In this document: positions 38,481 to 48,228 of the stretch, one piece after another | How the letters are laid out: each line of letters begins with the position of its first letter | Numbering within the stretch: the first letter of the stretch is position 1 | DNA from: Streptomyces sp. NBC_01454 | GTDB taxonomy: Bacteria > Actinomycetota > Actinomycetes > Streptomycetales > Streptomycetaceae | Length of the DNA stretch: 64,000 bases | Assembly: GCF_036227565.1 (NCBI RefSeq) | Contig: NZ_CP109460.1 | Coordinates: 6,634,001-6,698,000, forward strand | Reading direction: 5' to 3' | The notes under the pieces: generated by a model | Database searches by the model: none | Seen by the model: only the letters and a program-made list of their open reading frames with translations | What the model was told of the DNA's origin: nothing | Position numbers and translations under genes: made by a program

Positions 38481-39641
38481 TCACCCGACCGGCTGCGGGG
38501 CCGGCGCGTCCGCGGCCGGCGGTCCGGCGGCGGGCAGTTCGACCTCGAAGCGGCAGCCCGTCCCGGCATTGCGCACCGTCGTCCGGCCCTGGTGCGCCTC
38601 CACGATGCCGCGCACGATCGCCAGCCCCAGCCCGGCGCCGCTCTCGCCGTCCGCACGGGGCGTACGCGCCGCGCCGCCGCGCCAGCCGGTGTCGAAGACC
38701 CGTCCCAGATCCTCCGCCGGGATGCCGCCGCAGCCGTCCTCCACCGCCAGCACCACCCGGCCCTGCTCGTGCCGTGCGCTGACCGCGACGGTCCCGTCGG
38801 CCGGGGTCGCGCGGATCGCGTTGACCAGCAGATTGCCCAGGACACGGGTGATCTGCTGGGCGTCCACGTGCACCGGCAGCGGCACCACCCCGCCGTCCAC
38901 CAGCCGCACCCCGCTCTTCCGCGCCAGCGGCCCGGCGCCCGCGAGCGCCTCGTCCACCAGGTCGTAGACCGACACCCGCGACAGCGTCAGGGCCAGCGCC
39001 CCGGCCTGGATCCGGGAGAGTTCGAAGAGGTCGTCGACCATGGCGGCCAGCCGGTCCACCTCGATCCGCATCCGTGCGTGGTAGCGCGCGGTGTCCTCGG
39101 CGACCCCGTCCTCCAGCGCCTCGGCCATCGCCCGCAGCCCGGCGAGCGGGGTGCGCAGATCGTGCGAGATCCCGGCGATCAGCTCCCGCCGGGAGGCCTC
39201 CAGCGCCCGCTCGCGCTCCCGCGCCTCGGCGAGCCGCCCGCTGGTCTCCTCCAGCGCCCCGGACAGCGCGGCCAGTTCGGCGGTGGGCGGTTCGGCGGGC
39301 GCCACGAAGCCGCCCTCGCTGCCGACCGTACGGGCCGAACGCGCCAGCTCCCGGCTGCCCGCCGCGATCCGCCGCCCGAAGAGCAGCGCGGCCGCCAGCG
39401 ACACCACACCGGAGACGGCCACCACGGCCATCACCACGCCCAGGTCGTGCCCCGACAGGAACATCGCCTGGGCGACCGCCACCGTGCCCGCCGCCATCGC
39501 GGCCACCGCCAGCGCCGCCACCGCGAACAGCGACAGCGCGACCGAGCGCCGCCGCAGGGCCCGTACCGCGGGCGCGGCGACCAGCCCGGCCACTGTCGCA
39601 CCGAGCGCCGCCAGGGCCACGATGACCAGGAAATCCTTCAT
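38481..39641 (-). CDS. Two-component sensor histidine kinase
   Basis: A 386-residue membrane kinase. Two membrane segments lie in the first 95 residues with almost no extracellular loop; a HAMP-like linker (FGRRIAAGSRELARSARTVG) follows. The phospho-acceptor His is in AGISHDLRTPLAGLRA, and the ATP-binding boxes are NLLVNAIRATP, VEDGCGGIP and GAGLGLAIVRGI. The signal is therefore probably sensed in or at the membrane. ATG 39639-39641 overlaps the response regulator stop by 4 bp. The pair has no recognisable target gene beside it. Confidence 0.94.
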   Translation of the reverse strand: MKDFLVIVALAALGATVAGLVAAPAVRALRRRSVALSLFAVAALAVAAMAAGTVAVAQAMFLSGHDLGVVMAVVAVSGVVSLAAALLFGRRIAAGSRELARSARTVGSEGGFVAPAEPPTAELAALSGALEETSGRLAEARERERALEASRRELIAGISHDLRTPLAGLRAMAEALEDGVAEDTARYHARMRIEVDRLAAMVDDLFELSRIQAGALALTLSRVSVYDLVDEALAGAGPLARKSGVRLVDGGVVPLPVHVDAQQITRVLGNLLVNAIRATPADGTVAVSARHEQGRVVLAVEDGCGGIPAEDLGRVFDTGWRGGAARTPRADGESGAGLGLAIVRGIVEAHQGRTTVRNAGTGCRFEVELPAAGPPAADAPAPQPVG

Positions 39642-40441
39642 GACAGCAGGTCGCCTCCCAGCAACGGACCGTCCCCCTGCGGCGGCTCCTCGCGCGCGGG
39701 GTCGAAGCGGTAGCCGGCGCCCCAGACCGTCGTCACCAGCCGGGGCGCGGCCGGGTCCGCCTCGATCTTCTCGCGCAGCCGCCGCACATGCACGGTCACC
39801 GTGGACAGATCGCCGAACTCCCAGCCCCAGACCCGCTGCAGCAGTGCCTCCCGCGCGAAGACCTGCCCGGGGTGCCGCATCAGGAAGACCAGCAGATCGA
39901 ACTCGCGGGTGGTGAGGGAGAGCGCGCGTCCCCCGCGGGCGGCCCGCCGGCCGGCCGGGTCCGCGCTGAGGTCCCCGGCCCGCAGCACGGCGGCGGCCGC
40001 CGCGGCCGGCGGCGCGGACTCCGCACGGCGCAGCACCGAGCCGATCCGCAGCACCAGCTCCCGCGGGCTGAACGGCTTGGTCACATAGTCGTCCGCGCCC
40101 AGCTCCAGGCCCAGGATGCGGTCCGCCTCCTCGCCCCGTGCGGTGAGCATCACCACCGGCACGGCGGGGCCGTCGGCGGACCGGCGCAGCCGTCGGCACA
40201 CCTCCAGGCCGTCCAGGCCCGGCAGCATCAGATCGAGCACGACGAGATGCGGGCGGAAGTCCGCGGCCCGGTCGAGGGCGGCGAAACCGTCGGCGGCGTG
40301 CTCGGTGGTGTAACCGGCGCGGGAGAGATAGCCGGTGACGACCTCGGCGACGGTCGGATCGTCCTCGACGACCAGGACACGGCGCGGCGGCCCGGCGGCG
40401 GGGACGGGCGGCGGCGCGGAGGACGGGGTGGCGGGGTGCAC
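39638..40441 (-). CDS. OmpR/PhoB-family response regulator
   Basis: A 267-residue regulator: receiver domain at about residues 20-135 with the phospho-acceptor Asp in LVVLDLMLPGLDG and the switch Lys in DYVTKPFSPREL, then a winged-helix DNA-binding domain (LTTREFDLLVFLMRHPGQVF, TVTVHVRRLREKIE). The linker is Ala-rich. The start is GTG 40439-40441. It is the first gene of the pair with the sensor kinase. Phosphorylated protein would bind direct repeats at its target promoters; none is obvious nearby. Confidence 0.95.
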   Translation of the reverse strand: MHPATPSSAPPPVPAAGPPRRVLVVEDDPTVAEVVTGYLSRAGYTTEHAADGFAALDRAADFRPHLVVLDLMLPGLDGLEVCRRLRRSADGPAVPVVMLTARGEEADRILGLELGADDYVTKPFSPRELVLRIGSVLRRAESAPPAAAAAAVLRAGDLSADPAGRRAARGGRALSLTTREFDLLVFLMRHPGQVFAREALLQRVWGWEFGDLSTVTVHVRRLREKIEADPAAPRLVTTVWGAGYRFDPAREEPPQGDGPLLGGDLLS

Positions 40442-41160: not shown

Positions 41161-41184
41161 CAAACGCAACAATAAATGCGTTTG
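41161..41184. promoter_or_regulatory. 8-8-8 palindrome overlapping the ABC-F promoter
   Basis: CAAACGCA (41161-41168) and TGCGTTTG (41177-41184) form a perfect inverted repeat around the AT-rich ACAATAAA. It overlaps the first bases of the -35 hexamer at 41182-41187, so a repressor here would block transcription. Confidence 0.7.
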
Positions 41185-41210
41185 CGTTTCGCCGCCGTCC
41201 CCCGTACTGT
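41182..41210 (+). promoter_or_regulatory. Promoter of the ABC-F gene
   Basis: TTGCGT (41182-41187), a 17-bp spacer, and TACTGT (41205-41210), a good match to the vegetative -35/-10 consensus. Transcription would start near 41217, leaving a leader of about 235 nt. Confidence 0.65.
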
Positions 41211-41216
41211 CGAGCT

Positions 41217-41451
41217 CGTTCCATTGCCGCCGATCGGAGAAGGCCGTTGCTCGTCTGAGGTCCTGAGACACCGCGCCCGTAAGAGGCGAATCCGCCCTGT
41301 GCTCCCGCATTCCGGAGCGGCGGATCATGCCCGGCGCAGCCTGTCCGTGACCTCGGCGTACCGCAACCGCGTACCCCGGCGCACCCCGCGTGTATGACGC
41401 GGTGTCTCCCCGCGCAGTCCCCGTCCTTTCCCCCGCGCTCAGGAGACCCGT
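41217..41451 (+). promoter_or_regulatory. Candidate attenuator leader of the ABC-F gene
   Basis: The leader contains sequences that can pair in two exclusive ways. GAGACACCGCG (41265-41275) is the exact complement of CGCGGTGTCTC (41398-41408). The same 3' segment can instead fold locally as CCGCG-tgtatga-CGCGG (about 41386-41402), or pair GTCTCC (41404-41409) with GGAGAC (41442-41447), which would hide the ABC-F ribosome-binding site. Short ORFs with Shine-Dalgarno sequences precede these parts: TTG-CTC-GTC-TGA at 41247-41258 and a 7-codon ORF at 41327-41350. A longer frame ends with TGA at 41395-41397, in the loop of the local hairpin. Antibiotic-induced ribosome stalling on such ORFs controls other ABC-F genes. 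Confidence 0.55.
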
Positions 41452-43068
41452 ATGTCCGTGCCCCCCGCCGCCGCCTCCATCGTCTGCACCGGCCTCGACT
41501 TCGCCTGGCCCGACGGCACCCCCGTCCTGGAGGACTTCCCCCTGACCGTCGGCCCCGGCCGAACCGGCCTGATCGGCCTCAACGGGGCCGGAAAGTCCAC
41601 CCTGTTGAAGCTCATCGCGGGCGAGCTGACCCCGTCCGCCGGCGGCGTCAAGGTCGCCGGCGAGGTCGGCTACCTCCCGCAGCACGCCCCGCTCGACACC
41701 CATCTGCGGGTCGACGAGGTCCTCGGCATCGCCGGGGCCCGCGCCGCCCTGCACGCCATCGAGGGCGGCGACGCACGCGAGGAGCACTTCACCGCCCTCG
41801 GCGACGACTGGGACGTCGAGGAACGCGCCCGCGCCACCCTCGACCAGCTCGGGCTGCCCGGTCTCGACCTCGACCGCACCATCGGCGAGGTGTCCGGCGG
41901 CGAGTGCGTCCTGCTGCGGCTGGCGGCCCTGCTGCTGCGCCGGCCGGACGTGCTGCTGCTCGACGAACCCACCAACAACCTCGACCGGGCGGCCCGGGAG
42001 CGGCTGTACACCGCGGTCGACGGCTGGTCCAAGGTGCTCGTCGTGGTCAGCCACGACCGCGAACTCCTCCAGCTGGTCGACCGGATCGCCGACCTGCGCG
42101 ACGGAGAGGTCCACTGGTACGGCGGCAACTTCCAGGCCTACGAACAGGCCCTGGCCGTCGAACAGGAGGCGGCCGAACGGATGCTGCGCGTCGCCGAGGC
42201 CGACGTCCAGCGCCAGAAACGCGAACTTTCCGACGCCCAGGTCAAGTTGGCCCGCCGGGTCCGCTACGGCAACAAGATGTCCGCCGCCAAGCGCGAGCCG
42301 AAGATCGTCATGAACGAGCGCAAGAGGGCGGCCCAGGTCTCCGCCGGCAAGCACCGCACTTTGCACACCGAACGCCTGAAGGAGGCCAGGGAACGTCTCG
42401 ACGAGGCCGCCGAGGCCGTCCGGGACGACGACGAGATCCGTATCGACCTGCCGCACACCGCCGTACCCCCCGGCCGGACCGTGCTCCGCCTCGACGCCCT
42501 GCGAACCCGCTACGGCGCCCCCGCCGACCTGGAGGTCCGCGGCCCCGAACGGATCGCGCTCACCGGTCGCAACGGCTCCGGCAAGACCACCTTGCTGCGC
42601 ACCGTCGCCGGCGAGATCCCGCCGGCGTCCGGCACGGCCCGGGTCGACGTTCCCCACCGCTTCCTGCCGCAGCGCCTCGATGTCCTCGACGATGCGCTGA
42701 CCGTCGCCGAGAACGTCGCCTGCTTCGCCCCGGACGCCACCAACAACCACATCCGGGCCCGGCTTGCCCGCTTTCTGTTCAAGGGGTCCCGTGCCGACCA
42801 GCCGGCCGGCACGCTCTCCGGCGGCGAACGCTTCCGAGCCTCACTCGCCGCGCTGCTGCTCGCCGAACCGTCCCCGCAGCTGCTGCTGCTCGACGAGCCG
42901 ACCAACAACCTCGACATCGCCTCGGTCCGCCGGCTCGTCACGGCCCTGGAGTCCTACGAGGGCGCCCTGGTCGTCGTCAGCCACGACCCGGCGTTCCTGG
43001 GGGAGATCGGCATCACGCGATGGCTGACGCTGGAGGACGGTGAACTGACCGGCACCGTACCGCTGTAA
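41452..43068 (+). CDS. ABC-F ATPase, probable ribosome-protection antibiotic resistance
   Basis: A 538-residue soluble protein of two ATPase domains without membrane segments. Walker A motifs are GLNGAGKSTL and GRNGSGKTTL, ABC signatures SGGECVLLRL and LSGGERFRASL, and Walker B LLLDEPTNNLD in both halves. A basic linker of about 80 residues (about 240-330: RQKRELSDAQVKLARRVRYG) joins them; in ARE ABC-F proteins it enters the ribosome and displaces drugs such as macrolides and lincosamides. The start has AGGAGACCC upstream, 5 nt before ATG. Its leader and the palindrome over the promoter point to drug-responsive control. It is not clearly tied to a biosynthetic cluster here. Confidence 0.9.
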   Translation: MSVPPAAASIVCTGLDFAWPDGTPVLEDFPLTVGPGRTGLIGLNGAGKSTLLKLIAGELTPSAGGVKVAGEVGYLPQHAPLDTHLRVDEVLGIAGARAALHAIEGGDAREEHFTALGDDWDVEERARATLDQLGLPGLDLDRTIGEVSGGECVLLRLAALLLRRPDVLLLDEPTNNLDRAARERLYTAVDGWSKVLVVVSHDRELLQLVDRIADLRDGEVHWYGGNFQAYEQALAVEQEAAERMLRVAEADVQRQKRELSDAQVKLARRVRYGNKMSAAKREPKIVMNERKRAAQVSAGKHRTLHTERLKEARERLDEAAEAVRDDDEIRIDLPHTAVPPGRTVLRLDALRTRYGAPADLEVRGPERIALTGRNGSGKTTLLRTVAGEIPPASGTARVDVPHRFLPQRLDVLDDALTVAENVACFAPDATNNHIRARLARFLFKGSRADQPAGTLSGGERFRASLAALLLAEPSPQLLLLDEPTNNLDIASVRRLVTALESYEGALVVVSHDPAFLGEIGITRWLTLEDGELTGTVPL

Positions 43069-48143: not shown

Positions 48144-48228
48144 TGTCCGAGGGGGGACTTGAACCCCCACGCCCGATAAAGGGCACTAGCACCTCAAGCT
48201 AGCGCGTCTGCCATTCCGCCACCCGGAC
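48144..48228 (-). tRNA. tRNA-Leu (anticodon GAG)
   Basis: The minus strand from 48228 to 48144 gives an 85-nt class II tRNA. The acceptor stem is GTCCGGG with CTCGGAC plus discriminator A (one G-T pair). The anticodon stem CTAGC/GCTAG holds the loop TTGAGGT, giving anticodon GAG for CUC/CUU. There is a long variable arm, and the T-arm is GGGGGTTCAAGTCCCCC. CCA is not encoded. No integrase or att repeat is adjacent. Confidence 0.95.

Follow-up and report, generated by a model that had tools for sequence, protein, structure and literature searches.

Results

Genes and leader of the locus

The window, that is, the whole stretch of 64,000 nucleotides analysed, harbors on the forward strand (41452..43068) a gene coding for an ABC-F ATPase of 538 amino acids, which is probably the orthologue of Are5sc (SCO6720). 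The protein scored 340.9 bits against the NCBIfam model of ribosomal-protection-like ABC-F proteins, whose cut-off is 380, and 289 of the 295 genomes searched in the genus had relatives at E <= 1e-150. The published 20-nt target of the are5sc guide had no exact match in 188 loci; matches with one mismatch lie at the 3' end of the L010 and L017 genes, and the corresponding site of the window gene has a match with five mismatches, a resemblance that favors the orthology. Within the window's own genome (G000), the protein most similar to this ABC-F is only 39% identical, over residues 16-534, and therefore a TiaA-like partner (a class of about 54%) seems to be absent. About 1 kb upstream of the gene, a response regulator and a sensor histidine kinase, OmpR/MtrA-like and PnpS/BaeS-like according to NCBIfam scores that lie below the cut-offs, are encoded on the reverse strand (38481-40441).

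The promoter read in the preliminary description is indeed present: TTGCGT (41182-41187) and TACTGT (41205-41210) are separated by a 17-nt spacer. Together with an ATAAAT (41172-41177) lying 3 bp upstream of the -35 box (TTTGCG or TTGCGT, 41181-41187; 17-18 bp from the -10 box), they make up a WblC/WhiB7-like candidate promoter on the forward strand (41162..41210). Its layout resembles the architecture reported for the WblC promoters of S. coelicolor (GAAAWY, 3 bp, TKGMNN, 16-19 bp, TANNNT; PMC7157823), the ATAAAT fitting four of the six positions of the motif, and we regard it as a candidate WblC site. The promoter lies inside an inverted repeat, AAACGCAA-N12-TTGCGTTT (41162-41189), which extends across the -35 region and might possibly be the operator of some regulator; this repeat is perfect in L089, L096, and L097 and deviates at one or two positions in L090-L093 and L098. 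Judging from the position of the -10 box, the leader would span from about 41217 to 41451.

The leader embeds a short upstream open reading frame (uORF), L1, with a Shine-Dalgarno (SD) sequence of its own (GGAG; SD and uORF, 41236..41258, forward strand), whose codons TTG-CTC-GTC-TGA (41247-41258) would encode MLV. A second frame, L2 (CTG-AGG-TCC-TGA, LRS; 41255..41266, forward strand), overlaps it. Since these peptides equal those published for are5sc, the leader belongs to a known kind of attenuator. Of the two short ORFs with ribosome-binding sites that had been proposed upstream of the gene, the one at 41247 (L1) is conserved, whereas the ATG...TGA frame at 41327-41350 (MPGAACP) is gapped in most alignment rows and, by eye, L089 and L091 keep its ATG and not its stop; this second ORF is probably irrelevant. 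Likewise, an unsystematic look at the relatives revealed no conservation of the longer frame said to stop in a local hairpin.

Six arms of the leader, all on the forward strand, are relevant to its folding. Arm A (GAGACACCGCG, 41265..41275), whose first base is +19 of the uORF, is the exact reverse complement of arm B (CGCGGTGTCTC, 41398..41408), so that the 11-bp complement already noticed is real. The alternative partner of arm B is the SD region of the ABC-F gene: GTCTCC (41404-41409) pairs with GGAGAC (41442-41447) of arm C (the SD AGGAG plus AC, 41441..41447) and covers the SD, and the further GCGC pair that was expected to strengthen this stem (41412-41415 with 41435-41438) is also there. 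Pairing of B with A is predicted to correspond to the on state and pairing with the SD region to the off state. Folding indicates that the local hairpin at 41386-41402, which had been listed as a competitor, is able to form beside the B:SD stem. The segment containing the SD and codons of L1 is also the 5' strand of a helix, H1, whose 3' strand is arm D (GACCTCGGCG...GCAAC, 41349..41367; GACCTCGGCG...GAGCCGTCCT in many relatives). H1 can be extended by the pairing of arm E (TTGCCGCCG, 41224..41232) with arm F (CGGCGCA, 41378..41384), which in the window is not followed by a T-run.

Conservation of the leader

An SD followed by a TTG...TGA uORF was found in all of the 80 Streptomyces upstream regions fetched, a figure that is silent on more distant relatives because the ABC-F proteins of all 80 are at least 73% identical to that of the window (73-88%). 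These regions came from the top of a list of at least 149 places besides the window's own, some being skipped by hand. The uORF peptide differs from MLV in five of the 80 (MLF, MLL in two, MLD or MLA). In the distant relatives, the uORF often reads MRI (TTG-CGC-ATC-TGA), and arms A and B change together, as in L020, where GCGATCACC accompanies GGTGCTCGC. For the uORF motif, 19 of 24 rows were used; L001 (a duplicate of the window) and L015, L023, L040, and L065 (doubtful starts or short, different leaders) were left out.

With a covariance model (R1) covering the region from the uORF to arm D, matches at E <= 0.01 were obtained in 107 of the 121 genomes searched in the genus. In the class, 34 of 296 matched at E <= 0.001, of which 24 belong to the genus and 10 to a single other family; the window's own genome carries one copy found by the model. 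The idea that the leader might be shared with other genes found no support, as all 32 matches checked, i.e., 20 from the scan of the genus (mainly second copies and weak ones) and 12 from that of the class, are followed by an ABC-F relative, whole or fragmentary. In L200, an are5sc-like uORF is followed closely only by a piece matching ABC-F residues 367-505, and this gene seems to be degraded or to have lost a part. In L172, L175, and L177, the ABC-F relatives are preceded by variant leaders whose uORF has four codons (TTG-CTC-CAC-ATC-TGA). A scan of the window against Rfam 15 at the gathering score matched only a tRNA (48144-48228) and gave no match for the leader.

Alternative folds and their co-variation

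Three alternative pairings emerged: H1, joining the uORF to arm D; the 11-bp stem A:B; and B:SD, which would mask the ribosome site of the ABC-F gene. The comparison of the leader arms in other Streptomyces, proposed in the preliminary description as a check, revealed that both the pairings and the uORF are conserved and that the alternative folds co-vary. Indeed, when the arms of 98 leaders were paired with their own or with another species' partner, z-scores of -7.5 (H1), -6.9 (A:B), and -5.0 (B:SD) were obtained, the controls giving +0.9 (U:B), +0.4 (D:C), +1.7 (D:B), and -2.9 (A:C); from the last value it follows that relatedness inflates z and can alone reach about -3. The sets of 98 leaders used for the swap tests, the E:F helix, the local pairing of D, and the T-runs correspond to the 99 collected leaders minus L161, in which no D arm was found, and the table of arms holds 97, L161 and L149 being absent.

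In an alignment of 43 of the 99 leaders hand-chosen for diversity (A3), 90.3% of the H1 cells are paired, vs 31-44% in slid registers; seven H1 pairs are changed on both sides, vs 3.4 after shuffling, and the register slid by +2 also gives seven. No pair of the inner helix GAGGTC:GACCTC is changed on both sides. For A:B, in 42 of these leaders (A4; L119 was left out, its B arm lying outside the tail used), 90.9% of the cells are paired vs 24-51% in slid registers, and six pairs (18 cells) are doubly changed, vs 3.4 cells after shuffling and at most 4 and 6 in slid registers.

Folding predictions for GC-rich RNA are unreliable, and the following values have to be read with this caveat. The whole leader folds with z = -2.0 (5 of 200 dinucleotide shuffles were as good), and its segment from B to the SD with z = -4.4 (30 shuffles), the mean over the 99 leaders being -1.2. 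Across these leaders, the SD region is paired upstream with a value of 0.76 vs 0.33 in shuffled sequences. When the 72 nt preceding the start codon were folded, the best structure connected the B side with the SD side in every leader (99 of 99); it ends a median of 2 nt (at most 15) before the start codon, and four or more T are present in the 8 nt after it in only four of the 99. Comparative and folding evidence together point to mutually exclusive leader folds, one of which would shut the gene.

Position of the ribosome and A:B pairing

The spacing between the uORF and arm A is almost invariant, the CACC of arm A lying at uORF offset 22 in 90 leaders and one position away (21 or 23) in the remaining nine of the 99, whereas arm D is separated from the uORF and from arm B by stretches whose lengths differ by tens of nucleotides. 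The leading edge of a ribosome on a start codon lies near +16. With the ribosome modelled as a mask from -15 to +17, the mean A:B pairing was 0.12 in the unoccupied leader and 0.70 when TTG (codon 1) was in the P site, and it dropped to 0.21 for codon 2 and to 0.02 for codon 3. Ribosome positions upstream of TTG permit A:B as well (0.74 at -3, 0.64 at -6, and 0.47 at -12), and therefore the register sets a downstream limit only. As a function of the leading edge, A:B was 0.66-0.70 from +13 to +18, 0.35 at +19, and 0.09 at +21.

Relative to the ribosome-free leader, a ribosome on the start codon raised A:B in 86 of the 99 leaders and lowered it in none; the SD became more open in 61 and less open in six, its mean accessibility increasing only from 0.22 to 0.33. 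In transcripts ending before the SD, the mean A:B pairing was 0.93 (codon 1), 0.49 (codon 2), 0.03 (codon 3), and 0.21 (free), the corresponding values for the window being 0.98, 0.09, 0.00, and 0.00. In the full-length window leader at equilibrium, A:B was only 0.01 even when a ribosome occupied the start codon, arm A being engaged in a local stem; forcing A:B would cost 2.8 kcal/mol with the ribosome and 15.1 without. A full-length equilibrium switch is thus unsupported for the window, and the model needs co-transcriptional folding there. Among the near relatives, L089 (0.97) and L092 (0.88) do switch at equilibrium and L091 (0.02) does not.

It had been objected that stalling on the first short ORF would block the long-range stem. 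The models do not bear this out, since a ribosome at the published stall site, the start codon, leaves arm A (from +19 on) free, and only a ribosome on codons 2-3 would block it.

A group of compact leaders (L161, L178-L181, L183-L185) keeps the uORF and the A:B and B:SD arms and lacks the D arm. In seven of these eight, modelled A:B is 0.62-1.00 without a ribosome and at most 0.27 when codon 2 or 3 is in the P site, L181 showing only a weak A:B (0.15-0.22). Since A:B forms here in the free leader and falls with a ribosome on codon 2 or 3, translation of the uORF would be necessary for the off state. What speaks against such a requirement is the accessibility of the SD, which in the compact leaders hardly follows A:B and is no higher in the free leader (0.16-0.23) than on codon 3 (0.23-0.27).

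Termination signals

A T-run (at least five T in 8 nt, from D+28 to D+50) is present in 39 of 98 leaders, 10.0 being predicted by shuffling (the count is 36 of 98 in the E:F analysis, the 39 corresponding to slightly wider bounds); it occurs in none of the 11 leaders of the window clade (the window and L089-L098) and in 39 of the other 87. The E:F helix, to which the 5' end of the transcript contributes one strand, closes H1 and has a swap z of -5.2; it appears in the best fold of 29 of the 36 T-run leaders, and in 22 of these 29 a run of at least three T begins at its end or within 3 nt of it. Thus, H1 closed by E:F and adjoined by a T-run looks like a terminator enclosing the uORF, and such a structure in many relatives would fit the published transcriptional control. 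A terminator made of D and a local downstream arm was also considered and discarded, this pairing reaching only 0.02-0.16 and the T-run following E:F instead. The ribosome mask lowered E:F pairing only from 0.78 to 0.68 and removed on average 21 kcal/mol of structure; we infer that a stalled ribosome may prevent the terminator. Our scan for consensus-type terminators, whose scope is sites with a T-run, revealed a terminator-like site in 16 of the 99 leaders and none in the window between 41000 and 41600. Lacking the T-run, the window clade may switch mainly at translation.

Discussion

The closest known system is the are5sc leader of S. coelicolor, for which uORF translation, the stall site, and induction by drugs were shown by others (Koberska et al. 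2025, PMC12421871). According to this report, the 232-nt leader (about 235 nt here) carries the overlapping uORFs MLV, with a TTG start, and MRS/LRS, the latter, the counterpart of L2, being reported as untranslated; ribosomes are arrested at the start codon of MLV by lincosamides, streptogramin A, and pleuromutilin, and not by erythromycin (PMC12421871). The TTG-started MLV uORF, the overlapping LRS, the ABC-F gene, and the WblC link are common to both. There are also differences. Control of are5sc was described as transcriptional, whereas the leaders of the window clade are devoid of a T-run, their D arm is altered, and the SD gate proposed here would be translational. Moreover, in the text of PMC12421871 the ribosome sites of the uORFs belong to the anti-terminator, contrary to our reading of H1.

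We consider it probable that the leader is an attenuator of the are5sc kind, in which a stall on the start codon blocks H1, lets A pair with B, and opens the SD of the ABC-F gene. Conservation, co-variation, and geometry in folding models are what our analysis contributes to this reading; the gate at the SD, the sequence of steps, and the operation of the switch in this strain are inferred. Without a ribosome, the leader would fold into H1, hiding the uORF and trapping arm A, and B would remain available for masking the SD of the ABC-F gene. Once on codons 2-3 or on the stop codon, a ribosome would cover A, so that B would mask the SD in this case too. A lincosamide, streptogramin A, or pleuromutilin drug would instead halt the ribosome on the TTG start codon, where it would block H1 and yet end just before A, so that A might pair with B as the RNA emerges and the SD would stay open. 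In many relatives, an extra helix closes H1 and a T-run comes after it, so that the stalled ribosome should also prevent termination; the window clade, having no T-run, should rely mainly on the SD gate. Beyond the are5sc report, we propose a gate that masks the SD and a register set by the start codon. The drug-responsive, ribosome-mediated attenuator of the preliminary description is well supported by the are5sc precedent and by co-variation. Its second uORF is not, nor are macrolides, which should drop out as inducers, since erythromycin, unlike lincosamides, streptogramin A, and pleuromutilin, gave no response in the published toeprints.

Similar strategies are known from other leaders. 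Competing stems that unmask a ribosome site when the ribosome on the leader ORF stalls, as proposed here, are typical of ermC-type translational attenuators, which differ in that the stall occurs inside a longer leader peptide, is macrolide-dependent, and concerns a methyltransferase gene. The tiaA leader of S. coelicolor shares LSAP stalling at the uORF start codon, and reporters suggested translational control, but its uORF is a different one, MVGDDDISG (PMC12421871); we found tiaA-type uORFs upstream of several ABC-F relatives of roughly 54-56% identity. The LSAP-induced lmrC leader of Streptomyces lincolnensis also precedes an ABC-F gene and, as the A:B models would suggest for the compact leaders, apparently needs uORF translation for the off state, but it is described as terminator-based (PMC8546547). 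For the leader studied here, a search of the titles and abstracts of openly accessible papers revealed no publication on an SD-masking switch between A:B and B:SD.

A less likely explanation, which nevertheless retains some weight, is that attenuation is purely transcriptional, as for are5sc, the stall on the uORF averting a premature terminator and the B:SD hairpin being incidental or itself a terminator. Reporters placed are5sc control at the transcriptional level, with a predicted terminator and anti-terminator (PMC12421871), and the excess of T-runs (39 of 98 leaders vs 10.0 expected), the consensus sites in 16 of 99 leaders (the window not included), and the long hairpin ending beside a T-run in 22 of 29 leaders all agree with it. 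However, the window clade has no T-run in any of its 11 leaders and the window no consensus terminator site between 41000 and 41600; moreover, the fold joining the B and SD sides, found in 99 of 99 leaders, ends a median of 2 nt before the start codon and is followed by T-rich sequence in only four of 99.

That induction might be due to a WblC-driven promoter alone, the leader being a passive 5' UTR, appears very improbable: the WblC-like architecture of the promoter and the inclusion of are5sc in the WblC regulon (PMC12421871) speak for it, but the uORF is conserved, the arms co-vary, and in the are5sc report promoter-only reporters were active without drug whereas the reporter with the are5sc leader was drug-induced (PMC12421871). 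Chance folding of a GC-rich leader, from which many stems are expected and whose overall z is only -2.0, can hardly be maintained in the face of the co-variation, the register controls, and a uORF-to-A spacing fixed within 1 nt in 99 of 99 leaders.

Going back to the attenuator with start-codon stalling, we tentatively suggest, as a combined reading whose chances of holding in full are somewhat below even, that a single ribosome frozen on the start codon might operate two gates, blocking a giant terminator hairpin built round its own uORF and releasing the stem that unmasks the SD. Within this reading, the stem would be released because the leading edge of the ribosome stops just before arm A, and the register of arm A would limit the response to drugs acting at the first codon. 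Different lineages might then have lost different gates: the window clade would have lost the terminator gate and kept the A:B and B:SD arms, and the compact leaders L161, L178-L180, and L183-L185 would have lost H1 and kept the same arms.

The attenuator model supplies a concrete geometry, open to experiment, for how a uORF of only three codons can report drugs that freeze ribosomes at the start codon, and the leader family, with its 99 collected members, is one in which the comparison of lineages could separate the terminator gate from the SD gate.
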